DNA of 64,000 bases from Polyangium spumosum (lineage in GTDB: Bacteria > Myxococcota_A > Polyangia > Polyangiales > Polyangiaceae). The notes beneath the pieces were generated by a model. The model did no database searches. It saw only the letters and a program-made list of their open reading frames with translations, and was not told the DNA's origin. The stretch's first letter is position 1. Each line of letters opens with the position of its first letter. Below, piece after piece: positions 1,628-18,219 of the stretch. Both the position numbers and the translations under genes were made by a program. The stretch covers positions 62,001 through 126,000 of the forward strand of contig NZ_WJIE01000020.1 of the NCBI RefSeq assembly GCF_009649845.1, read 5' to 3'.

Positions 1628-4600
1628 ATGTCCTCGAACCTCGCCCGTCCGCGCTTGGCCGTCGTCGTGCTGGCGCTCCTCACCCTGGTTTGTCCAGGGC
1701 TCCTCACCGCATGTCGTGAGCCGGAGCGACCGCTCCACCCACGATCCCAGACCTGGGCCGAGCTACGGACGGTCCGGCGCGACGTGACGGTCGCGCCACC
1801 CGGCGAGCCGGAGCGGCCTCCATACCCGCGCGAACGGCTCGTGGACGGAGAGGTGGTGCGGGTGCAAGAGGACGGGCTCGCGTGGCTGCGTCGGGACGGG
1901 GGCGCGACGCTGCTCGTCCGAGGGCCCGCCGAGCTCGCCCTGCACGCCGACGTGATCACCATCAAGCACGGGCGCGTCTTCGTGGATACGCCCGCGACCA
2001 TCACCACGGAGCTCGAGACGCCGACGGGCCCGCTGCACCTCGCGCAGGTGCGCGCGAGCATCGACGTGGCCCGGAAAGACGGCGCGACGGACGTGTACGT
2101 GCTCGCCGGCGAGGTCCGCACGGACGGCTCGGCGCGCGCGACGGCCGGGGAGCGGCTCCTGCTCGAGCCGCACAAAGGCCAGCCGATCGCGAGGACGTCG
2201 CCGGTGCTGACGTGGGAGGACTGGACGGGCGGGCTCGCGACGACGGATCGCTCGGCCGAACCCTCGCCCTACGGCGTGGGCACGGTGGGCGCGCGGCGGC
2301 CGGGCGAGCAAGGCGCGCCGCGCTTCCCGCTCGCGATCCAGAGGCTCGACGTGCGCGTGTCGATCCAGGAGGACTTCGCGATCACCGAGGTCGACGAGGT
2401 CTTCTTCAACCCGAGCTCGGCGACGGTCGAGGGCATCTACCGCTTCCGCACGCCCGCGGGCGCGACGCTGCACAAGTTCGGCGTGGATCGCGACGGCGTG
2501 GTGTTCTGGGGCTACGTCAAGGAGAAGCAGGCCGCCGCGGCGCAGTACCAGGCGAACGTCTACGAAGGCAGCAAGGAAGATCCCGCGCTGCTCGAGTGGG
2601 AGGCGCCCGGCGTGTACAAGGCGCGGCTCTACCCGATCCTGCCCGGACAATCGCGGCGGGTCGTGGTGCGTTACGCCGAGTGGCTCGGCCGAACGGGGCC
2701 ACGCGGCGAGCGGCGGCTCTACGTGTACCCGATGGCCGCCGAAGGCGCAGAAGGGTCACTGCCACACATCGAGGAGCTGACGGCGACGATCGATCTCGCG
2801 CGTGCTTCTGCGCGCGAGGTGCGCACGGGCATGAGCGGCGCGCGCGAGGGCGGGACGATCACGGTGCGCGCGCAGGACTTCGTGCCGAGGGCCGATCTCG
2901 CGATCGAGCTCTTCGACGACGGCCTCGTCGCGCCGCGTGGATACAGCGCGCCCCACACGATGGACCTCGAGACGGTGCCGCCGTCCGAGCGCGCAGACGC
3001 GGCGAAGCGCGCGAAGACGGAGGCCGACTACGTGATCGTGCCTGTGCGAGCGGCCGACGTGCCGCTCTCGAAGGGCGGGCTCGATCTGGCGATCGTGATC
3101 GACACGTCGGCGGCGACGGACGCGGCGTCGCTCGCGATCGCGCGCGCGACGACGGCGGCCCTGCTCGCGCACCTCGGCAAGGACGATCGGGTGGGCGTGT
3201 TCGGAGGGGACACGTCGCTCGTGCCCCTGGTGCCAGGAAAAACGGGCCTCGGGACGATCGACGAGGCCGGGCGGCGCGAGGTGCTCGCGCGGATGTCGCA
3301 GATCGAGCGGGGCGGAGCGACGGATCTCGGTGCGATGTTGAGCCAGGCCGCGGCGCTCCTGGATCCGGCGCGGCGCGGCGCGGTGGTGTACGTCGGCGAC
3401 GGCGCGCCCACGGTCGGCGAGCTGCGGCTGCAGGAGCTGCGCGATCGGATGGCGAAGCTGCCGAGGCCGGTGCGGATGTTCGGCGTGGGCGTGGGCGACG
3501 AGGCCGACATGGCGCTGCTCGAAGGCCTCGCGCGTGGTGGTTTTGCCGAGCGCGTGGCCGACGCGAACGCGGCGGCGCGCGTGGCGCTCAGGCTGCTCGA
3601 GCACGCGGAGCGTCCGGTTTGGCTGGGCGCGCAGGTGGACCTCGGGCCCACGGTGGAGCGGATCTTCCCGCGGGATCTCGGCGCGCTGGTGGCGGACGAG
3701 AGCATCGCGGTGATCGGCCGCGTGACGGCCGGAGGGCTGCCCACGACGGTGGCGCTGACCGGGCCCGCGGGTACGGTCAAGACAAACATGCAGGTGACGC
3801 GGATCGAGGATCACGGAGACCTGCGGCGTCGATGGGCGGAGGGGCGTCTCTTGCAGATGATGGCCGAGGCGACGGGGCGCGCGGCGATGGTGGATCTCGG
3901 CTCGCGGCACGCGATCATCACGCCGGTCACGTCGCTCTACGTGCCGACGAAGAACGAGATGACGCCCGAGGAGCGCGCGGAGCTCGAGCGCAAGAAGGGC
4001 ATGGCGCGCAGCCTCGTGGAGACGAAGCGCCGGATGGGATGGACGCCGATCATCAAGTCGGACGTCGACGTCGACGAGGAGGAGGCAAAGCCCGAGGCCG
4101 AGCTCGCCGCTGCGCCGAACGCCGACAACAAGGAAGGTGGCACGGGCACGCGGGCGAAGGGCGAAGAGGGCTCGATGGGCAACCCCACGCGCTCCTCGGG
4201 CAACCGCTACGGCGTGCAAGGGCCCGCGGACAACGCCGACTCGCGGCAAGCCGCGATGCGCGACGCGGCCGAGTTCGGGATGATCGGCCTGCTCAACGCG
4301 GGATCGGGCGGCGATCCAAACGCGCCCACGGCGCCGTGGGGCCGCGACGATTCGCTCGGCGGTGATGCGCTCTCCGCGCGAGGCAACCAGTGGGGAGACA
4401 CGACCGGCGACTCGTTCGGCGCGGGCGGCCTCGGGCTCTCGGGCGTCGCCGCGGGCGGCGGCGGGCGAGGCGAGGGGATCGGGCTCGGGAACATCGGGAC
4501 GATCGGGCACGGCGCAGGCACGGGCACGGGACAAGGGTTCGGCTCGGGCGCGGGGCGGCTCGGCGGATCCCACAGGAGCGCGCCGCCGAAGATCATGGAG

Positions 4601-6265
4601 GCGCCGATCGCGATGCCGAGCTCCGCGGCGACGGCCGCGCCGGCGGCGCCTCGACCTGCCCCGCAGGCGGCGCCGTCGTTGCCGGCCGGCCTCGCAAAGC
4701 AATCGAACGCGCCCGGGGATCCGCTCACAGGCGCCGAGGTGCTGGACGGCAAGGCGACCGCGGGAGAGGTCGATGTGCCGAAGGCCGACGAGGCCCAGAA
4801 GGCGGCCGAGAAGAAGGCGAAGGGCGCCGCGGGGTCGAGCGGTCGGTTCACGCTCGTGGTCCAGGTGGGCGACGTGCCGCACAAGGCGTCGCCGTGCAGC
4901 GGGGCTGCGCTCGTGCCGTTCGGGGAGCGGGTGGGCTTGTGGCGCGAGCGGTTCGGGCGCGTCGCGGGCAACCCGCTGGGCGTGCAGTCGGTCTACCGCG
5001 CGGCGCTGTCGGCGTGTGAGGCGCCGACGTGGCGCGAGAGGTCGAAGCTCGTCTCGCTCATGCTCGACGCGATGCCGTCGATCGCGTCGAAGGTGTCGCT
5101 CTGGCGCGTGATGTTCACGGATCTCGGCGTGGCCGACGCGCTCTACCGCGGGATCCTCGCGCGGGTGCGCACGGCGCAAGAGATGCGCGAGCTGCACGCG
5201 GCGCTCGGGCTGAAGACGATGGATCCGGGGCTCCTCGAGAAGCTCATCAAGGACACGAAGTCGCCCGACGAGCGGGTGAAGAAGCTGCGCGAGCTCGTGG
5301 CGCAGTGGCCGAACGATTTCGCGCTCGCGTTGCGGCTGCTCGACATGCTGGAGGACGCAGGGGACGACGCGGGCGCGCGTGAGCTCGGCCGGACGCTCCG
5401 GTCGAGGCCCGACGCGGACGCGCGCGTGCGGACCGCGGTGGGCGAGCTCTACCTGCGCCTCGCGGTGAAGGAGACGGACGCGGGCAAGAAGGCGGCGTAC
5501 GAGGCCGAGGCGCGCAGGTCGTTCGGCGAGATCGTGGAGTTTGCCCCCGACGATCCGGTGGCGCGGCGCAGGCTCGGTGATCTCTTGAGGGCCCACGGTT
5601 GGTACGCGGACGCGGCGCGGCAGTACGAGACGCTGGCGCGGCTCGCGCCCGACGACACGAGCGTCTCGCTGCTGCTCGCGGCGGCCGCCGAGGGGACGGG
5701 CAAGCTCGAAGAGGCGATCAAGTGGACGGAGAAGGGCGGCGCGGCAGGCGCGCCCGACGCGGAGCAGAGCCCGGCCGTGACGGCGCGAGCGTTCGCGGCG
5801 ACGTACCTCGCGTGGGGCCGGCTCGAGGCGCAGAAGGCCGGCAAGAAGGACGAGGAGCAGACGCTGCGCGCGCGTCTCTTGCGGGTGATCTCGACCGAGC
5901 GCGCGGCGGGCAAGGCGCCGCGTGGGGCGCGGGTGTCGCTCACGTGGTCGCACCCGGAGTTCCACCCGTCGCTCTGGACGAACGCGCTCGGTACGCAGAT
6001 GCCGGCGCCGGAGGGCGACGTGACGCTGGGCATTTCGCAGGCCCTCCTGCCGATGCGCCCGGACGCACGCGTGGAGGTGCGGATCGAAGGTGAGGACGTG
6101 GAGCACGCAGCGCGCCTCGGCGCGGAGGCGGTCCTGACGGTCATCTTCGACGAAGGTGAGGACGGCGAGACCATCGTGAAGCAAACGATCCGCTTCGCGC
6201 GCGGCGGCAAGCCGGTGCGGGCGTTCGCCATCTCGAAGGGTGAGGCCCGGGAGGTCGAGCCGTGA
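1628..6265 (+). CDS. large lipoprotein with FecR-like, VIT, VWA, Gly-rich and TPR regions
   Basis: This encodes 1545 residues from the ATG at 1628, which has CGGAGG nine bases upstream; an upstream in-frame ATG at 1610 lacks this. The signal peptide ends in a lipobox (LLTAC), so the protein should be lipid-anchored. Approximate order: FecR-like barrel (50-190), VIT domain (234-357), von Willebrand A domain (481-657), a long Gly-rich low-complexity stretch (840-1020), then a TPR-like helical region (1200-1360). VIT-VWA proteins resemble inter-alpha-trypsin-inhibitor heavy chains and normally bind partners through a metal site. Here the MIDAS motif reads DTSAA rather than DxSxS, so metal binding may be lost. 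It overlaps the next gene by four bases (GTGA), and the two share the whole VIT-VWA-TPR plan, so they are tandem paralogues. The partner protein and function are unknown. Confidence 0.88.
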   Translation: MSSNLARPRLAVVVLALLTLVCPGLLTACREPERPLHPRSQTWAELRTVRRDVTVAPPGEPERPPYPRERLVDGEVVRVQEDGLAWLRRDGGATLLVRGPAELALHADVITIKHGRVFVDTPATITTELETPTGPLHLAQVRASIDVARKDGATDVYVLAGEVRTDGSARATAGERLLLEPHKGQPIARTSPVLTWEDWTGGLATTDRSAEPSPYGVGTVGARRPGEQGAPRFPLAIQRLDVRVSIQEDFAITEVDEVFFNPSSATVEGIYRFRTPAGATLHKFGVDRDGVVFWGYVKEKQAAAAQYQANVYEGSKEDPALLEWEAPGVYKARLYPILPGQSRRVVVRYAEWLGRTGPRGERRLYVYPMAAEGAEGSLPHIEELTATIDLARASAREVRTGMSGAREGGTITVRAQDFVPRADLAIELFDDGLVAPRGYSAPHTMDLETVPPSERADAAKRAKTEADYVIVPVRAADVPLSKGGLDLAIVIDTSAATDAASLAIARATTAALLAHLGKDDRVGVFGGDTSLVPLVPGKTGLGTIDEAGRREVLARMSQIERGGATDLGAMLSQAAALLDPARRGAVVYVGDGAPTVGELRLQELRDRMAKLPRPVRMFGVGVGDEADMALLEGLARGGFAERVADANAAARVALRLLEHAERPVWLGAQVDLGPTVERIFPRDLGALVADESIAVIGRVTAGGLPTTVALTGPAGTVKTNMQVTRIEDHGDLRRRWAEGRLLQMMAEATGRAAMVDLGSRHAIITPVTSLYVPTKNEMTPEERAELERKKGMARSLVETKRRMGWTPIIKSDVDVDEEEAKPEAELAAAPNADNKEGGTGTRAKGEEGSMGNPTRSSGNRYGVQGPADNADSRQAAMRDAAEFGMIGLLNAGSGGDPNAPTAPWGRDDSLGGDALSARGNQWGDTTGDSFGAGGLGLSGVAAGGGGRGEGIGLGNIGTIGHGAGTGTGQGFGSGAGRLGGSHRSAPPKIMEAPIAMPSSAATAAPAAPRPAPQAAPSLPAGLAKQSNAPGDPLTGAEVLDGKATAGEVDVPKADEAQKAAEKKAKGAAGSSGRFTLVVQVGDVPHKASPCSGAALVPFGERVGLWRERFGRVAGNPLGVQSVYRAALSACEAPTWRERSKLVSLMLDAMPSIASKVSLWRVMFTDLGVADALYRGILARVRTAQEMRELHAALGLKTMDPGLLEKLIKDTKSPDERVKKLRELVAQWPNDFALALRLLDMLEDAGDDAGARELGRTLRSRPDADARVRTAVGELYLRLAVKETDAGKKAAYEAEARRSFGEIVEFAPDDPVARRRLGDLLRAHGWYADAARQYETLARLAPDDTSVSLLLAAAAEGTGKLEEAIKWTEKGGAAGAPDAEQSPAVTARAFAATYLAWGRLEAQKAGKKDEEQTLRARLLRVISTERAAGKAPRGARVSLTWSHPEFHPSLWTNALGTQMPAPEGDVTLGISQALLPMRPDARVEVRIEGEDVEHAARLGAEAVLTVIFDEGEDGETIVKQTIRFARGGKPVRAFAISKGEAREVEP

Positions 6266-9200
6266 GCGACGAGCGACGAGAAGAGCAAGACGTGAAGGAC
6301 CCGGCCCCCGCCGAAACGAGCGTGACGGACGCCGAGGCGCCGCTTTGTCCCGACGAACCCCCGGCCGGCGCAGAAGAAAAGGGGAGCGCGAGCGAGGGCG
6401 GTAACGCAAGCGGAGGCGGAGACGGCAGCGGGAGCGGGAGCGGCAACGGGAGCGGCAACGGGAAAGACGACGACGAAGACGACGAAGACGACGAGCCCGC
6501 GGCCGCGGCTCCCGAGCCTCCGCGCGTCGACGAGCGCCGTATCCTCGTCGTCACGCGCGGCGACAAACTCGACACCGTCGAGTGGTTGCCCGTCCGTGAT
6601 CCCCGCGCGCAGGAGCAGATCCGGCGGACGCCCGCCGCGCCCTTGCCGCCCGAGGGGGCGAGCATCCCGCCCGCGCTCTTCGCGATCGTGAGCTCGATCG
6701 TGGTCATCCTCGTGACCGTCGTCCTCTTGCGTGGGCAAGGCGAGCGCAAGCCGAGCCAGCCGCTCGTGCCGACGGTGGCCGATCTGCAGGCCGTACACGC
6801 GTCGGTGACGGCCGCAGGCGCTCCCGTGCACAAGACGCGGCGCCTCTCCGAGGGTGACGTCGTCGAGACCGACGTGGAGGGTCGAGCGCGCCTGCGGCTC
6901 GATGACGGCACGGGCCTCGTGCTGGATCGCTCGACGCGGCTGCGCCTCACGCAGAAGGGCGTGGCGCTCGATCACGGGCGCATCTTCGTGCAAGGCGCGC
7001 TCGGCGCGCGGACCGAGATCGAGCTCGGCGAGGCGACGGGGATCGTCAGCGGCGCGAACACCGGCATCGAGCGCCCGCGCGAGCGAGCGGCGAGCGCGAA
7101 GCTCTACGCGGCGACCGAGGAGATCACGGTGCGCGCCGGCGGCGTCGAGAAGACCGTGCGCGGCGGCGAGACGGCCACCGTGACCGGCAACAAAGTCGAG
7201 GTCGCGCCCGAGCGCGGCTACGACGACTGGACGGGCGGCATGGCCGCGCCCTGGGGCGCGAAGGGCGCGCCGCGCAGGGCCGTCGGTGAGCTCTGGGGTC
7301 GGCCGGACAAACCCGGTGACGCCGGCTCGCCGCTCACGATCCGCGCGCACGACGTGGAGGCGAAGGTCGCGCGCGAGCTCGCCGAGACCGAGGTGCGGAC
7401 GACGTTCTTCAACGCCGGCAGCAGCGCCGTGACGGGCGACTATCGCCTGGCGATCCCGCCGGGCGCGATCGTCGCGCGTTTCGCCTCGGTGCGCGGCGGG
7501 AGCACGAACGAGGGGCACATCGCGCTCGCGACGCGCGACACGCGCCAGCACAACGGCTCGGGCGGGGAGGTGCTCGAGTGGGCCGGTGAGGGCTGGGTCC
7601 GCGCGACGATCCCGAGCATCGCGCCCGGCGCGACGGTGCAGGTCATCGTGCGGTACGTCGAGTGGCTCTCGCCGCGACCGAAGGGCGATGGGACCTGGAT
7701 CGTGCAGTACCGCTACCCGATGGTGTCGGACGCCGCGCCGCCGCTCATCGGCGAGTTCTCCGCGAAGATCGACGCCACGCAGTCGAGCCCGAAGTCCATC
7801 GGCGCCGGGCTCGGGGCGCGCGTGACGGGCAGCACCGTCGAGGTGCGGCGGCCCGATTACCGCCCGACGGCGGACCTCGTGGTGGACGTGGCGATCGAGC
7901 CCTCCTCGGCGCCCGCGCGGCTCTTCGTGGCGCCGCCGTTCGAGGGCGACGAGGACGATCCGGCCTCCACGATCCTCGTGCGCACCGAGGTGCCCGAGGC
8001 GCGCGCCGAGGACGGCGTCACGCTCGCGCTCGTGCTCGACGTCTCGTCGAGCGTGGAGCCTGCGCTGCTCGACGCCGAGCGCGCGCTCGTCGACGCGGTG
8101 CTCGCGGGCCTCGGGGCGCGTGATCGCGTGGTGGTGCTGGCGGCCGATCAGACGGTTCGTCCCATCGGCCCTCCGGCGATCGGCCCCGTGGACGAGGCGC
8201 GCCGCAAGGCGATCCGCGAGGCGCTCGGGCAAATCTCGACGGGCGGCGCGACGGATCTCGGCCGCGCCCTCGAGGCAGGCGCGGACGCGCTCCCCATCGA
8301 CGCCCCCGCGGGCATGGTGATCTACGTGGGTGACGGCTGGCCGACCGTTGGAGATCCAACGGTCGATCGGATCCAGGCGCGGCTCGCGCGCAGGCAGGGC
8401 GGCGCGCCTCGGCTCGGCGCCGTGGGCGTCGGGCCGCTCGTCAACCGCTTCGCCCTCGCGAGCCTGGTGCGCGGCTCGGGGCCGCTGCTCGAGATCGCGG
8501 ACACGACGGACGCCGCGCGCGTCGCGACCGAGCTCATCGCCGAGGCCCTGCAGCCCGCGGTGGCGGGCGTCGAGGTCGTCTTCGGGACCGAGGTCGATCG
8601 GATCTACCCGCGATCGGCGCGGGCGATCACGGCCGGCGAGACGGTCTTCGCGGTCGGCCGCGTGCGGGGTGATCCGCCGCGCTCGATCACGCTGCGGTAC
8701 CGCGACGCGCAGGGCGTGCACGAGGAGAAACGCTCGGTGGTCGTGGAGCGCGCGCTGCGCGAGCAGGACGTGGCGCGGCGCTGGGCCGCGGCGCGCGTCG
8801 AGGAGATCGCGCTGAAGGGCAAGGGCCGCGAGGCCGCGACCGACGTCGCGCTGCGCGCCGGCCTGCTCACGCCGTGGACGGGCTTCGTCATCGGCGGCCC
8901 GCGCGTCTACGCGCCGTCGCTCCTGCAGACCCGCATCCTCGATCTCTCGGCCGGGCCCGAGTCGGGCTTCTCGGCCGCGTTCGCGACGCCGCGCGCGGCC
9001 GCCGGGACGCTCATGAACGTCCCGCAGGAGACCGAGTCCGCCGAGGGGGACGACGACGAGGCTGCCTACAAGGCCGCGGTCGCCGAGGCCGCGGCCCGGC
9101 TGCTCGACGAGGCGGGCCCCTCGGTCCGCGCGTGCCGCGACTCGCGCGCGGCGCTCCGGCCCGAGCTCACGGGCAAGCTCGACGTGCGCTTCTCGATCGA

Positions 9201-10689
9201 CGGAGAGGGCCGCGCCGACAAGGTCCGCGTGAAGGGCGTCGCGGGCGCCGACGACGACGCGCTCGGCCGGTGCGTCGAGGTCGTCGTGCGCGGGATGATC
9301 TTCCCCGCGAGCGGGCTGACCGTGTCCATCGAGGTGTCGCGCACGCTCGGCCTCCCCCCGCCGCGCGCGACGCTGCGGGGACGCAAGTGCTCGCCGACCT
9401 CGTTCCTGCCGCTCCCGCTCCGCCGCGGCGTGTGGCGCGAGCGGCTCGAGCGCGGCCAGGCCGACGTGGTCTACGTGGAGGCGAAGCAGTCGTGCGAGCT
9501 GCCCACGTGGACCGATCGCCGCGCGCTGCTCGAGCTCATCCTCGTGAACGAGCCGAACGGCCTCGCGCGTGTCGCCGTCGCAGGGAAGCTCGAGTTGCTC
9601 GGCGAGAGCGACGCGGCCGCGCTGCTCCGGCGCGAGGCGATCCGCCGCGCACAGAGCCCCGAGGAGCTCTTCGCGATCAAGCGCGAGCTCGTGGGCAGCG
9701 AGCGTTACCCCGTCGGCACGTTCCGCAAGCAGTACCGCGCGGCGAGCGACGACAAGGGGCGGCTCGCGGTCGTGCGTCGCTTCCTGGGGATCGCGCCGCA
9801 CGACGCGCGGCTCCGGCGCCGGCTCTTCGCGCTGCTCGAGTCGCTCGACATGAAGGCCGAGCTCTCGGAGGAGATCCGGCGCGTCCGCCGCGATCCGTTC
9901 GCGGACGCGGGCCTGCTCGCGGACGCGGCCTCGGCGCTCTTGCGGATCGGCGACGAGGCGGAGGCGCGGAGGACGTTCGGCGAGCTCTCCGAGCGCGCCC
10001 CGCGTGACCCTTGGGCGCGCGCGTTCCTCGGCGATCGCCTGCGCAACGAGGGCTTCTTCGATGACGCCTCGCTCGCGTACGCCGTGCTCGAGGAGCTCGT
10101 CCCCGAGGAGCCTGCGGCCGTCATTCGCCTCGCGCTCGCGCATGCCGGCGCCGGCAGGCTCGACATCGCGCACCGCATGCTCGCGCGCGTGGCGCAGACG
10201 GGCGGTCGGGCGGGCGACGAGAAGCTCGGCACGCTCGCGGGCCGGCTCGCGCACGTCCTGCTCGCCGAGGGGCGCGGTCGAGCGGGGCTCTCGGAGGCCG
10301 ACGCCGATCGCCTCGTGCGGGCCTCGCTGGAGCTGCCGTACCCGAACGGGGCCGTGCTCGCGCTCGTCCGCGCGCCTGCCGGCGCTCTCGCGCTCGACGT
10401 GAAGCTCCTGCGCGACAAGGTCGAGGACTTCCTCGGGCCCGAGGTCTCCGCGGCGGGCGTCGGCCTCTACGCGCTCCGCTTCGGCGTCGCCGAGAAGGCG
10501 CCGATCTCGCTGCGGCTCGCGCGACCCGAGGACCTCGCGCCCGCGCGCCCCACGAAGGTACGCGTCGACGCGCTCGTGCCCGACGAGGGCGGCAAGCCTC
10601 CGAAGCTCGTGTCCCTCGACGTCGAGCTCCCGCCGACCGGTAAGCCCGTGACGCTCCGCTGGACGGGCAGCGCCTTCCTGCCCAACTGA
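6262..10689 (+). CDS. membrane-anchored FecR-VIT-VWA-TPR protein, paralogue of the upstream gene
   Basis: This encodes 1475 residues from a GTG whose last bases overlap the stop of the previous gene, implying translational coupling. The N-terminus is an acidic, Gly/Ser-rich cytoplasmic stretch with no signal peptide. One transmembrane helix follows at about 133-158, then a FecR-like domain (193-313), VIT (356-473) and VWA (585-766). Next come a region with paired cysteines resembling the C-terminal domain of AgmX/TonB-like gliding proteins (941-1033) and TPR-like helices (1196-1346). Unlike its neighbour it keeps a MIDAS-like DVSSS. The shared segment around a conserved W-R-E-R and a later Cys lies at equivalent positions in both paralogues. 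The likely topology is inner-membrane with a large periplasmic part. A function in surface adhesion or envelope signalling is inference only. Confidence 0.88.
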   Translation: MSDERREEQDVKDPAPAETSVTDAEAPLCPDEPPAGAEEKGSASEGGNASGGGDGSGSGSGNGSGNGKDDDEDDEDDEPAAAAPEPPRVDERRILVVTRGDKLDTVEWLPVRDPRAQEQIRRTPAAPLPPEGASIPPALFAIVSSIVVILVTVVLLRGQGERKPSQPLVPTVADLQAVHASVTAAGAPVHKTRRLSEGDVVETDVEGRARLRLDDGTGLVLDRSTRLRLTQKGVALDHGRIFVQGALGARTEIELGEATGIVSGANTGIERPRERAASAKLYAATEEITVRAGGVEKTVRGGETATVTGNKVEVAPERGYDDWTGGMAAPWGAKGAPRRAVGELWGRPDKPGDAGSPLTIRAHDVEAKVARELAETEVRTTFFNAGSSAVTGDYRLAIPPGAIVARFASVRGGSTNEGHIALATRDTRQHNGSGGEVLEWAGEGWVRATIPSIAPGATVQVIVRYVEWLSPRPKGDGTWIVQYRYPMVSDAAPPLIGEFSAKIDATQSSPKSIGAGLGARVTGSTVEVRRPDYRPTADLVVDVAIEPSSAPARLFVAPPFEGDEDDPASTILVRTEVPEARAEDGVTLALVLDVSSSVEPALLDAERALVDAVLAGLGARDRVVVLAADQTVRPIGPPAIGPVDEARRKAIREALGQISTGGATDLGRALEAGADALPIDAPAGMVIYVGDGWPTVGDPTVDRIQARLARRQGGAPRLGAVGVGPLVNRFALASLVRGSGPLLEIADTTDAARVATELIAEALQPAVAGVEVVFGTEVDRIYPRSARAITAGETVFAVGRVRGDPPRSITLRYRDAQGVHEEKRSVVVERALREQDVARRWAAARVEEIALKGKGREAATDVALRAGLLTPWTGFVIGGPRVYAPSLLQTRILDLSAGPESGFSAAFATPRAAAGTLMNVPQETESAEGDDDEAAYKAAVAEAAARLLDEAGPSVRACRDSRAALRPELTGKLDVRFSIDGEGRADKVRVKGVAGADDDALGRCVEVVVRGMIFPASGLTVSIEVSRTLGLPPPRATLRGRKCSPTSFLPLPLRRGVWRERLERGQADVVYVEAKQSCELPTWTDRRALLELILVNEPNGLARVAVAGKLELLGESDAAALLRREAIRRAQSPEELFAIKRELVGSERYPVGTFRKQYRAASDDKGRLAVVRRFLGIAPHDARLRRRLFALLESLDMKAELSEEIRRVRRDPFADAGLLADAASALLRIGDEAEARRTFGELSERAPRDPWARAFLGDRLRNEGFFDDASLAYAVLEELVPEEPAAVIRLALAHAGAGRLDIAHRMLARVAQTGGRAGDEKLGTLAGRLAHVLLAEGRGRAGLSEADADRLVRASLELPYPNGAVLALVRAPAGALALDVKLLRDKVEDFLGPEVSAAGVGLYALRFGVAEKAPISLRLARPEDLAPARPTKVRVDALVPDEGGKPPKLVSLDVELPPTGKPVTLRWTGSAFLPN

Positions 10690-14028: not shown

Positions 14029-14763
14029 TCAGTCGTACCGCTCGGTGTGCACGTGCTTGCGGTCGACGCCGAGCTCGCGGCGGCAGAGCTCGCGCACGGC
14101 CTTCACCATGCGCTCGAGGCCGCAAACGTAGACGTGCGGCGCGACGGGCGCGCCCGCAGCCTCGAGCTCGCGCAGCAGGGCAGGGACGTGCGCCTGGACA
14201 TAACCGCTCTTGCCCTTCCATCCCTCGCCGGGGCGCGAGAGCGTGATCTCGTACCGCACGTGCGGGTGCGCGCGGACGAACGCCTCCATCTCCGCGCGGT
14301 AGAGGATGTCCTCCTCGAAACGCGCGCCGAAGAGCAGCCAGAGCGGCGCGCCCGAGCCCTTCGTGAGCGCGGCCTGCATCATCGCGCGGAGCGGCGTCAC
14401 GCCCGTCCCGGTGCCGACGAAGAGCGAGGGGCTCGGATCCTCGGAGGCGCGCGTGAACAGGCCATGCGGGCCGATCGCCGAGAGGACCGAACCCTCGGGC
14501 AGATCGTGCAGGTAGATCGAGCCCGTGCCGCACGGGACACGCGTGACCGCGATCTCGAAGCGGCTCGATCCGTCGGGCGCCGACGCGATCGAGTACGCGC
14601 GGCGCCGCTCCCCCTCGGGCAGCGGCAAGGCGAGGTTCACCCACTGACCGGGTTCGTGACCGATGGGCTGGCCGTCGACGCGCTCGAACACGAGCTGCCG
14701 CACCATCGGCGCGATCATCGTCGCCGATACGAGCCGCACCTCGAACGTCTCGGGTTTTTTCAT
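14029..14763 (-). CDS. ferredoxin/flavodoxin-NADP+ reductase-like FAD oxidoreductase
   Basis: A 244-residue protein of the FNR family. The FAD-binding motif RAYSIAS sits near residue 55. The pyridine-nucleotide motif GTGTGVTPLRAM follows near 117-128, and the CGLERM segment near 208 is the usual NAD(P)-side signature. It ends HVHTERYD, where FNRs have their terminal acidic/aromatic stacking region. It is expected to transfer electrons between NAD(P)H and a small carrier in the cytoplasm. It lies 36 bases after the TPR gene but has its own promoter candidate overlapping that gene's stop, so it may be both read through and independently expressed. The physiological partner is unknown. Confidence 0.88.
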   Translation of the reverse strand: MKKPETFEVRLVSATMIAPMVRQLVFERVDGQPIGHEPGQWVNLALPLPEGERRRAYSIASAPDGSSRFEIAVTRVPCGTGSIYLHDLPEGSVLSAIGPHGLFTRASEDPSPSLFVGTGTGVTPLRAMMQAALTKGSGAPLWLLFGARFEEDILYRAEMEAFVRAHPHVRYEITLSRPGEGWKGKSGYVQAHVPALLRELEAAGAPVAPHVYVCGLERMVKAVRELCRRELGVDRKHVHTERYD

Positions 14764-14775
14764 CCGGCGACGCGG

Positions 14776-14803
14776 AACATAGGGGGAGGTGCCGTCACGT
14801 CAA
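14776..14803 (-). promoter_or_regulatory. candidate promoter of the FNR-like gene
   Basis: The minus strand reads TTGACG, 16 bp, TATGTT, ending 12 bases before the ATG at 14763. The -35 box overlaps the stop codon of the upstream TPR gene. The predicted transcript would start about six bases before the start codon, so it is nearly leaderless. Confidence 0.5.
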
Positions 14804-16548
14804 GCGGGCCCGTCCGTGGGATCCCTGCGCGTCGAGAAGCCCGCCATCACGGCGCGCGCCTCCGCCTCCGGATCCCACGTGATGCCGGCGCCGATCTCGA
14901 GCGTGCCCGGCGGCACGGAGAGCGCCGCCGCCACGATCGGGCCGAGGTCGAGCCCCTCGACCAGAGGCCCCACCTCGCCCGCGAGCGGCGCCGAGAGCAC
15001 ACGCGCGCCGGAGACACGCGAGAGTCGCGCGCGCGCGTCGCCGCCGAGCGCGACCTTCAACGAGGCGAGATCCCGGCCCACCTCGACGAGCGGCGTGCCC
15101 CCGAGCCAGGCCCACACGACGAGCCCGGGCATGTCCGCGATCGCCGCCGCCGCGCTGCGCTCGGAGGGCAGGGAAGGGCGCCCCGTGCCGGCGCTCGGGC
15201 TCGCCACGGCCGCCACGAGCAGGCCCGGCGGCGCGAGGCAAAACGAGGAGAGGCGCGCGAGGTTGCGTTGCGCGGTCGTCTTCGCCTCGGCGAGGCGCGC
15301 GAGCTCGTCGGGCTCGGCGTGCAAGAGCTCCACCTCTTGCGCCACCGAGAGGTGCGGCAGGCCCTGGGACGCGGCCGCGATGGCCTTCTCCGACGCCCGC
15401 GCCTCGGCCTTCACCGCCGAGGACGTCCGTTCGTCGCGCAAGACCTCGGCGATGCGCCCCGCGAGGCCGAGCGCGGCGAGCTGCGACGCGGGGCCAAAAA
15501 AACGCGAGGGGACGCCGGGCTCGGGCGCGGCGGCGTCGGCGCGCGCCTCGAGCTTCGCGCGATCCCAGCTCGTCAGCGCGGCGCCGAGGGGGTTGCCCAC
15601 GTCGCCGAAGAGCGTGGCGGCGGCCTCGAGATCCTCGCGCGCGTTCGGCTCGCCGAGATCCATCCGGGCGCGGCCGATCGCGCGCGTGGCGTAGGCGATC
15701 CACAGGCGGAGCGGCGGTCGGGCGGAGGCGGCGATCTCGCGGGCGCGGGTCGCGAGGGCGAGGGCATCGTCGGGGCGGCCACGCGCGGTGGCCACGTCGG
15801 CGAGGAAGTTCAAGGCGCGGGCCTGGCCGAAGACGTCGCCGACGCGCGAGCAGAGCCACTCCTGTCGCTGCAAGAAATGCCGCGCGCGCTCGAGGTTGCC
15901 GAGCGCGAGCGCGGCCGAGCCGAGCTGCCCGAAGGAGATCGCCTCGCCGATGACGTCGCCGTGCTGGTGGTGCAGCTCGGCCGCGTGCTCGAGCAGATCC
16001 CGCGCCGCGCCGTGCGCGCCCATGACCACGTAGAGCGTCCCGAGCGAGTTCAGGATCTTCGCGCGTTCGTCGAGGAAGGGCTGCGATCGTTCGAGCGCCC
16101 AGAGCAGGCTGCGTTGTGTCGCGGCCGCGTCGCCGAGGAGGCGCTCGGCGGCGCCGCGGTAGTGCGTCGCGACGACCTCGACGAGCGCGTCGCCGTCCGC
16201 CTCCCGCGTGATCGCCTCGAGCGTCGTGATCGACTCGCGATACACCACGCGTGGTCCGCGCCGCACCGCCGCGAGGATCGCCTCGCAGCGCGCGATCTTG
16301 CCGGCGCGGATCTCGCCGAGGTCCGCGAACGCGGAGGCCGCCGCGGACAGGCTCTCGCGGGCAAGGTCGAGCGCGCCTTCACGTTGACCGAGCGCGCCCT
16401 TCGCGAAGAGGCGCGCGGCCGATCGCAGCGGATCGAGATCGAGCGCTTCGAGGCGCGCCATCTCGGCGTGCGCCTCCTCCGCCGGTGCGCTCTTGAGGAG
16501 CCGCGTGATCGAGGAGACCTCGTGCAGAGGGTCGAGGGGACGGATCAT
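14800..16548 (-). CDS. TPR-type helical protein in the subtilisin operon
   Basis: 582 residues from the ATG at 16548, whose bases overlap the TGA of the subtilisin gene (ATGA). Nearly the whole N-terminal 400 residues are Ala/Leu-rich paired helices of tetratricopeptide type (for example an LNSLGTLYVVMGAHGAARDLL-like helix pair near 175-200). The last ~150 residues change character to a mixed alpha/beta region with no motif I recognise. There is no signal peptide or membrane helix. TPR proteins usually act as scaffolds, so a role in presenting substrates to, or sensing for, the coupled protease is a reasonable inference. It is last in the three-gene overlap chain. Confidence 0.8.
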   Translation of the reverse strand: MIRPLDPLHEVSSITRLLKSAPAEEAHAEMARLEALDLDPLRSAARLFAKGALGQREGALDLARESLSAAASAFADLGEIRAGKIARCEAILAAVRRGPRVVYRESITTLEAITREADGDALVEVVATHYRGAAERLLGDAAATQRSLLWALERSQPFLDERAKILNSLGTLYVVMGAHGAARDLLEHAAELHHQHGDVIGEAISFGQLGSAALALGNLERARHFLQRQEWLCSRVGDVFGQARALNFLADVATARGRPDDALALATRAREIAASARPPLRLWIAYATRAIGRARMDLGEPNAREDLEAAATLFGDVGNPLGAALTSWDRAKLEARADAAAPEPGVPSRFFGPASQLAALGLAGRIAEVLRDERTSSAVKAEARASEKAIAAASQGLPHLSVAQEVELLHAEPDELARLAEAKTTAQRNLARLSSFCLAPPGLLVAAVASPSAGTGRPSLPSERSAAAAIADMPGLVVWAWLGGTPLVEVGRDLASLKVALGGDARARLSRVSGARVLSAPLAGEVGPLVEGLDLGPIVAAALSVPPGTLEIGAGITWDPEAEARAVMAGFSTRRDPTDGPA

Positions 16549-17375
16549 GAGAGCGCGCCTCCGTGGTCGATCTGCGCAGGGGGTGACGAGGCGCGCGAGA
16601 GGCCTGCGTCGCGCTCGAGCCGCCGGGCCGCGAGCGCGTGCAGCGCGGCCTTGATGTCCTGGATCGAGAGATCGGCGCGCGCCTCGCGGAGCCGCGCGAC
16701 GTGCGCGGCCACGTGGGGCGCGGCGAACGAGGTGCCCGTCCACCGTCGCTCGCCGCCGCCGAGCGCGGGCGCGAGCACGTCGTTGCCCGGCGCGAGGATC
16801 TCCCAGTCGACCGTGATCTCGGTCTTCAAGAACTCGGGGTCGTCGGACGACGCGCGCCCCACGCCGATGAGGGATTTGAAGCGCCCCGGGTAGGTCCGGA
16901 ACGCCGAGGCGTTGGGCCCCGACGCGACGAGCACGACGCCGGCCGTGTACGCGACGTCCGCGATCTCGTAGAGCTCCACGATCGACTTGTAGTCCGTGGG
17001 CCGGAGCGGCGCGCCCTTGGGCAGGTCGATCCCGAGGCTCAGGTTCACGACGTCGAAGCCCTCGCGCACGCAGAAGCGCGTCGCCGCGAGCAGGCCGTCG
17101 CGCGAGCACCTGCCCTCGGGCGAGAGCACGCAGACGCTCGTGATCTCGGCGAACGGCGCGAGCCTGTGGATGATGCCCGCGCACGCCGTGCCGTGCCCCG
17201 ATCGATCCACGGGTTCGTCGGGACAGACCGTGAAGCCCTCCCCCTTCTTCTCCACGCGCAGCGAGCGGATCTCCGCGCCCGCGAGCCACGGGTGCGAGGC
17301 GTCCACGCCCGAGTCCACGAGGGCGACACGCACGCGCCGCGCCTCTGCAGGCGCCTGTGGGTTCGTCTCCGTCAT
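16545..17375 (-). CDS. cytoplasmic subtilisin-like serine protease (peptidase S8)
   Basis: 276 residues from the ATG at 17375, which overlaps the TGA of the preceding gene by four bases. The catalytic triad is complete: Asp21 in VALVDSGVD, His61 in SGHGTACAG and Ser216 in GTSFAAPHVA. The Asn of ASGPN near 150 may serve as oxyanion residue. Unlike secreted subtilisins there is no signal peptide and no propeptide-sized N-terminal region, and the length is that of a bare catalytic domain. It therefore probably acts in the cytoplasm and must be controlled by something other than propeptide cleavage. The coupled GAF-like and TPR proteins are obvious candidates (inference). Confidence 0.9.
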   Translation of the reverse strand: MTETNPQAPAEARRVRVALVDSGVDASHPWLAGAEIRSLRVEKKGEGFTVCPDEPVDRSGHGTACAGIIHRLAPFAEITSVCVLSPEGRCSRDGLLAATRFCVREGFDVVNLSLGIDLPKGAPLRPTDYKSIVELYEIADVAYTAGVVLVASGPNASAFRTYPGRFKSLIGVGRASSDDPEFLKTEITVDWEILAPGNDVLAPALGGGERRWTGTSFAAPHVAAHVARLREARADLSIQDIKAALHALAARRLERDAGLSRASSPPAQIDHGGALS

Positions 17376-18184
17376 GGCGTACCGTCGTAGGGAACCGCGC
17401 CGCCCATCGAGGCCGCGTAGGCGTCGAAACGCGCGAGCACCTCGGCGCAGAGCGTGGCCTCGGCGGGACCGCGATCGCAGAGCTTGCCCACGGCGAGCGC
17501 CAGCGCGAGCCGCTCCTTGTACGTCGGCCCGAGGCGGAGCGCGTGAATGTATTGCGCGAGCGACTCGCGCAGCGAGGTGGGCGCGTCTTCGGCGAGCAGG
17601 TCGGGCAGCGCGCGCGCGAAGAGCGAGAAGATCATCTGCTCGGTGCGGAACGACTCCACCGTCAAGGCCAGCACCTCGGCGAGCCGCTCGGCCATCTCGA
17701 GGTGGTGATCGCCGAGCGGCGCTCCCTCTGCGAAGAGCGCGGCGCCGCCGATCGTGGACTCGCCGACGCGGATGGGCACGAAGATCCCCGCCGTCGGCCG
17801 CGTGGCGAGGGCCGGGCGCAGGGCGTCGATCATCGGGTCGTCGGGGCCGAGCTCCGCCGCGTGCGCGCCGCCGCCGCCGAGCAGGTAGGCGAAGGGCGTC
17901 CCGCTCGGCAAGAACTCCAGCGTGGCGCGGCGATACCCCTGGGGATCGGCCACGACGGGGACGCTGAGCCGGCCGAGCGCCTCGACCTCGAGGGCGACGA
18001 GCGCCTCGGCGCAGGGGAGCGCGAGGCAAGCGAAGCGCAGGTGCTCGCCGAGCCCGCGCATGCGCACCTCCGATTGACCGACGAGGGCGGCGGACTCGAG
18101 CGTGGCGAGCAGATCTCGCAGCCGGCTCGAGAAGCCGAGCAGCGAGGCGCGGGCCACGTCGGCGGCGGGCGCGGGGAGGGTCAT
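17372..18184 (-). CDS. GAF-like sensory protein heading the subtilisin operon
   Basis: 270 residues from the ATG at 18184. A second ATG at 18193 has its purine run directly abutting and is less likely. The central part (about 70-180) resembles a GAF domain: alternating strands, a FVPIRVGESTIGGAALF core and a following ALTVES helix. It is flanked by helical segments. There are no catalytic or output motifs and no membrane helices. The stop overlaps the start of the protease gene (ATGA), so translation is coupled. A ligand-sensing or adaptor role for the protease is inferred from order only. The promoter candidate upstream would give a leaderless transcript. Confidence 0.75.
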   Translation of the reverse strand: MTLPAPAADVARASLLGFSSRLRDLLATLESAALVGQSEVRMRGLGEHLRFACLALPCAEALVALEVEALGRLSVPVVADPQGYRRATLEFLPSGTPFAYLLGGGGAHAAELGPDDPMIDALRPALATRPTAGIFVPIRVGESTIGGAALFAEGAPLGDHHLEMAERLAEVLALTVESFRTEQMIFSLFARALPDLLAEDAPTSLRESLAQYIHALRLGPTYKERLALALAVGKLCDRGPAEATLCAEVLARFDAYAASMGGAVPYDGTP

Positions 18185-18191
18185 GGCCCGC

Positions 18192-18219
18192 ATCCTACAA
18201 AAACTTGGCCTCGATCAAA
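18192..18219 (-). promoter_or_regulatory. candidate promoter of the GAF-subtilisin-TPR operon
   Basis: The minus strand reads TTTGAT, 16 bp, TAGGAT. The ATG at 18184 is seven bases past the -10 box, so the message would start at or next to the start codon. The region is AT-rich compared with its surroundings and is shared with the divergent J-domain gene. Confidence 0.4.

Follow-up and report, generated by a model that had tools for sequence, protein, structure and literature searches.

What might a bacterium do with a subtilisin-family protease that appears to be made ready for use inside the cell, and how would such an enzyme be controlled? These questions are raised by three consecutive minus-strand genes in a 64,000-nucleotide stretch of the genome of the soil bacterium Polyangium spumosum (from contig NZ_WJIE01000020.1; hereafter the window), which encode, in order, a GAF-domain protein, an S8 subtilase and a TPR protein. 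The known bacterial examples of signal-gated proteolysis mostly involve either membrane proteases or ATP-dependent proteases that work with adaptors. A small subtilase governed by a GAF protein and swappable partners, if that is what the locus encodes, would add a further route by which a signal in the cytoplasm leads to irreversible cleavage, and would reveal how the cytoplasm tolerates a subtilase without a propeptide.

Layout and products of the three-gene unit

The GAF gene (17372..18184, minus strand; 270 aa) shares an ATGA with the S8 gene (16545..17375, minus strand; 276 aa, P0002), the stop of the first overlapping the start of the second at 17372..17375, and the S8 gene overlaps the TPR gene (14800..16548, minus strand; 582 aa, P0003) in the same way at 16545..16548. 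We placed the GAF start at 18184, as an alternative ATG at 18193 is not present in a related locus (L046). These coordinates agree with an earlier sequence-only reading of the window, which had described a three-gene unit with two 4-base ATGA overlaps; its further claim that the proteins are 'made in step' reads too much into translational overlap. Four-nucleotide overlaps are common (3 of the 14 same-strand neighbour pairs in the counted part of the window, two of the three being GAF/S8 and S8/TPR), so a single overlap says little, and what counts is persistence at the GAF/S8 junction, where 16 of 19 loci retain the 4-nt overlap. Between S8 and TPR, relatives show anything from a 20-nt overlap to a 25-nt gap. 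A possible fourth gene, encoding an FAD/NAD oxidoreductase (14029..14763, minus strand), begins 36 nt downstream of the TPR gene and is found downstream of the unit only in Polyangium and in one other genome (G008).

Membership of P0002 in the Peptidase S8 (subtilase) family is firm, based on a Pfam profile match (Peptidase_S8, E 1.4e-25; 90.7 bits against a cut-off of 21.8), the catalytic residues Asp21, His61 and Ser216, and the oxyanion residue Asn155. The triad, already called complete in the earlier reading, is invariant in all 32 members of the S8 clade described below, and Asn155 is present in 31 of them. The catalytic domain starts at about residue 14, preceded by ~13 residues and no propeptide, and no hydrophobic leader indicative of a signal peptide was seen by inspection, as the same reading had held for both elements. 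By these features P0002 is shown to be encoded as a mature protein whose active-site residues are intact; it is predicted to be cytoplasmic and is apparently an active subtilase. That such an enzyme 'must be held in check', as was also proposed, is plausible but not required, because narrow specificity, or single turnover as in the maturation protease QhpE (PMC7876137), would serve.

Its two partners were assigned from profiles and predicted structures. P0003 matches TPR_12 (Pfam, 52.5 bits), and its model (pLDDT 88) gives VIA Z values of ~21 to TPR and Rap proteins, with coverage mostly of residues 8-415; the predicted TPR superhelix, with helical repeats at ~14-436, is a confident assignment. 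The repeats are followed by an alpha/beta C-terminal domain (~440-575), the pattern of which looks by eye like the class III nucleotide cyclase homology domain, whereas HHalign, with shallow profiles, gave this match a probability of 0.1%. For the first protein, the GAF call from the Polyangium sequence falls below the Pfam cut-off (GAF_2, 17.9 versus 28.6 bits), but the predicted structure, a moderate model with a mean pLDDT of 68, has a core at about residues 45-180 that matches solved GAF domains, followed by a helical C-terminal tail, and S8-linked GAF proteins of other tested lineages score above Pfam cut-offs. On the modelled fold, the protein can be placed in the GAF domain family.

Conservation, separation and fusion of the genes

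The sequence-only reading had staked its proposal on the gene order being conserved outside this strain, and the order GAF-S8-TPR indeed recurs in 6 of 6 Polyangium genomes (G000-G005), in seven further Polyangiaceae genera (G008, G010, G023, G028, G344, G398, G505, G541, G542, G548 and G557), in a metagenome-assembled genome (L049) and in a second family, f18 (G404; L154), where HHalign (E 1e-11) identifies the TPR protein of L154 as a homologue of P0003. Three more genomes (G536, G241 and G488) have contigs that break off after the S8 gene, leaving the third gene out of view. Apart from the oxidoreductase in G008, the genes flanking the unit differ among genera, and thus the flanks change while the three genes stay together. 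Of 59 related genomes, 11 contain both an S8 of this clade and a GAF protein of this family, 47 contain neither, and one (G056) has a clade S8 with a different GAF; these genomes are related, such that a p-value for this co-occurrence is not an independent one.

Departures from the standard arrangement bear on how the proteins might cooperate. Two genomes (G022 and G559) keep GAF and TPR side by side with S8 on a different contig, and in a third (G528) the two are fused in one 784-aa reading frame with no stops (L194, G528:C253, 1081-3435), with the S8 gene elsewhere (L155); all three are draft assemblies, and the missing linkage is only as reliable as the assembly. The fusion, which is the best evidence, and the GAF-TPR pairs kept without S8 argue for the GAF and TPR proteins working as one complex, with the protease probably acting in trans. 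In G022, the GAF-TPR pair (L076, 4827-9170) is followed by an Hsp70-family gene that overlaps the TPR gene.

An S8 clade with an exchangeable third partner

Searching 289 members of the class with an S8 profile gave scores with a step from 183 bits down to 109 bits. In a tree of the members above this step and two plasmid sequences, compared with fourteen other S8 sequences, the clade was set apart with support of 100/100; in the fourteen comparison sequences, the protease domain lies inside longer proteins. A GAF gene directly adjoins S8 in most clade members, and the pairing occurs in three phyla (Myxococcota, Gemmatimonadota and Actinomycetota), its spread beyond the Myxococcota being represented by two plasmid records (megaplasmid matches). 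S8 genes without a linked GAF occur in two genera, g18 and g256 (L075, L151, L155 and L156), and the protease may accordingly be able to work alone too.

The third partner varies, being a TPR protein, a sigma-70-like protein or a set of radical-SAM, peptide and ABC-exporter genes. On plasmid 2 of Gemmatirosa kalamazoonensis (Gemmatimonadota; L197, 5150-7205), a true sigma factor, S8 and GAF are joined by two 4-nt overlaps, mirroring the window's unit in a different phylum, and on a plasmid of Miltoncostaea oceani (Actinomycetota; L196, 5300-7331) a true sigma-70 factor gene is followed by S8 and GAF genes overlapping by 4 nt. The three L196 genes lie downstream of a protein kinase gene. Among myxobacteria, the third gene is sigma-70-like in L153 and L157 and perhaps in L158, L159, L161 and L162, as judged from one weak NCBIfam match (L153, E 4e-6), a weak resemblance of the two sets to each other (E 9e-4) and inspection; HHalign comparison of the third genes of both sets with true sigma factors gave no support. 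The sigma-70-like partner in sister lineages suggests that some versions of the module may end in a transcriptional response. In L153 and L157, an ABC transporter gene lies directly upstream of GAF-S8, and in another locus (L163, G402:C2:3000-17000, at 4226-9021) genes for a radical SAM maturase, a 98-aa peptide, GAF, S8 and an ABC exporter stand in a row, in what is, from its gene content, a probable RiPP locus. The L163 maturase is a DynA-like radical SAM/SPASM protein, and the 98-aa peptide has an aromatic-rich tail (GYYVNYYYNTYSASYRNR). Such exchange of partners could equally be compatible with S8-GAF pairs serving unrelated tasks.

Candidate functions and genomic setting

We give about an even chance to the reading that the unit is a regulated-proteolysis module, in which a mature cytoplasmic S8 protease would be controlled by the GAF protein and an exchangeable partner, here the TPR protein. 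The protease would be made mature in the cytoplasm and cleave a specific target; the GAF protein would sense a small ligand or the state of the cell; and, with its partner (here the TPR superhelix), it would assemble into a complex, regulatory or substrate-presenting, through which the protease is turned on or off. Control of S8 by GAF and partner is suggested by GAF-S8 adjacency in three phyla, the G528 GAF-TPR fusion and the GAF-TPR pairs kept after S8 had moved. The sensor-protease-scaffold logic of the sequence-only reading is thereby retained in part: the unit is conserved, and the fusion and the protease in trans point to partner control, whereas the association with abortive infection falls away (see below). 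More tentatively, and a little short of even, a GAF protein paired with a propeptide-less cytoplasmic subtilase may represent an undescribed signalling cassette spanning phyla, in which a GAF subunit that senses a ligand gates the mature protease and the interchangeable partner, be it a TPR scaffold, a sigma-70-like factor or machinery for exporting peptides, determines the output. Many neighbouring annotations of 'S8 family peptidase' and 'GAF domain-containing protein' would then gain a testable meaning.

As had been claimed, no described system of GAF-S8-TPR composition was found in the open-access literature (description elsewhere is possible), the close analogues being QhpE, Isp1/IPI and PopC/PopD; neither these three nor the peptidase-cascade systems were found to have the arrangement. 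The unit is real, conserved and apparently undescribed, and the mechanism proposed for it is, on comparative sequence evidence, moderately supported.

Among the alternatives, a maturation protease of the QhpE type is unlikely, if the likeliest of them: P0002 would cut the leader off a single peptide or protein encoded elsewhere, perhaps in one turnover only, with GAF and TPR as chaperone-like helpers. QhpE, which matures quinohemoprotein amine dehydrogenase, is likewise a small cytoplasmic subtilase, acting before ABC export as a single-turnover processing enzyme (PMC7876137). Among curated NCBIfam models it scores best against P0002 (91 bits) and takes one of the top two places for other clade members, and its logic of radical SAM protein, protease and ABC exporter recurs in L163, with the transporter genes upstream of GAF-S8 in L153 and L157 also in keeping. 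However, the score of P0002 (91.4 bits) is far below the NCBIfam cut-off (NF049966, 165), and the description of the qhp operon (PMC7876137) names no TPR or GAF gene. Neither radical SAM, small-peptide and ABC-exporter genes adjoining the Polyangium unit nor, in the window's gene list and among the neighbours, the radical SAM protein QhpD, the gamma subunit QhpC or the exporter QhpF were found.

We know of no GAF or TPR partner for the intracellular subtilisins of Bacillus, and it is improbable that P0002 is a general enzyme of this kind, recycling proteins in stationary phase with GAF and TPR as inhibitor and adaptor. The likeness lies in a cytoplasmic S8 protease without a signal peptide and, for B. 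subtilis Isp1, in a reported separate inhibitor, IPI (PMC3901451). Bacillus-type enzymes, however, carry a LIPY/F motif in an inhibitory N-terminal propeptide (PMC6220982), whereas the motif is absent from all S8 sequences extracted for the clade, and conserved GAF pairing with partner exchange suggests specific signalling instead. Still less probable is a protease like PopC of Myxococcus xanthus, also a myxobacterial subtilase without a signal peptide, secretion of which is blocked by PopD unless cells starve (PMC6434023), such that P0002 would be retained in the cell by its partners and, when cells starve, exported to cut a protein at the surface. By description, PopC (50.8 kDa) has a large N-terminal part before its protease domain, is secreted and has PopD as its sole partner; P0002 has 276 aa in all, with ~13 residues before the domain.

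An abortive-infection or anti-phage role, in which infection sensed via GAF unleashes the protease, is very improbable: S8 proteases do occur in defence systems (IetS) and generic PADLOC models match ('subtilase', E 1e-17; 'TPR', E 3.5e-6), but no PADLOC match was found among the ten neighbouring genes, the locus is syntenic among the Polyangium genomes and flanked by SIR2-family, PilZ, PAS/STAS and GroEL-region genes, dN/dS is low, and S8 has no plasmid or phage match at 60% identity or above. The peptidase-cascade conflict systems of multicellular bacteria (PMC7159879) similarly link peptidases with sensory and adaptor proteins but are built around genes of the trypsin/caspase, MoxR-vWA, NucA or GTPase kinds. 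The unit adjoins none of these, and no GAF-S8-TPR arrangement was found in that description.

The unit lies in an ordinary chromosomal neighbourhood, at a core locus, in a genome that Polyangium species match at 91% protein identity and with which they share a genus. The unit's neighbours encode SIR2-family, FAD/NAD oxidoreductase, DUF4388-DnaJ, Kelch, PilZ and PAS-STAS proteins, with GroES/GroEL farther out, and the stretch around it is syntenic in other Polyangium genomes. All three genes are under purifying selection, with mean dN/dS among Polyangium loci of 0.09 (GAF), 0.17 (S8) and 0.16 (TPR), compared with 0.21 for the adjacent oxidoreductase. Plasmid and phage collections held S8 relatives below 60% identity only, and 55 were found on viral contigs at 25-39% identity. 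The suggested link to abortive infection and defence islands is thus not borne out, given the neighbours, the synteny and dN/dS of ~0.09-0.17, and we infer that the Polyangium unit, a chromosomal one, works in signalling or processing and not in defence. Elsewhere in the window (1856-10689), two long adjoining proteins (1469 and 1475 aa), encoded with a 4-nt overlap, resemble one another (~32% identity, through a relative).
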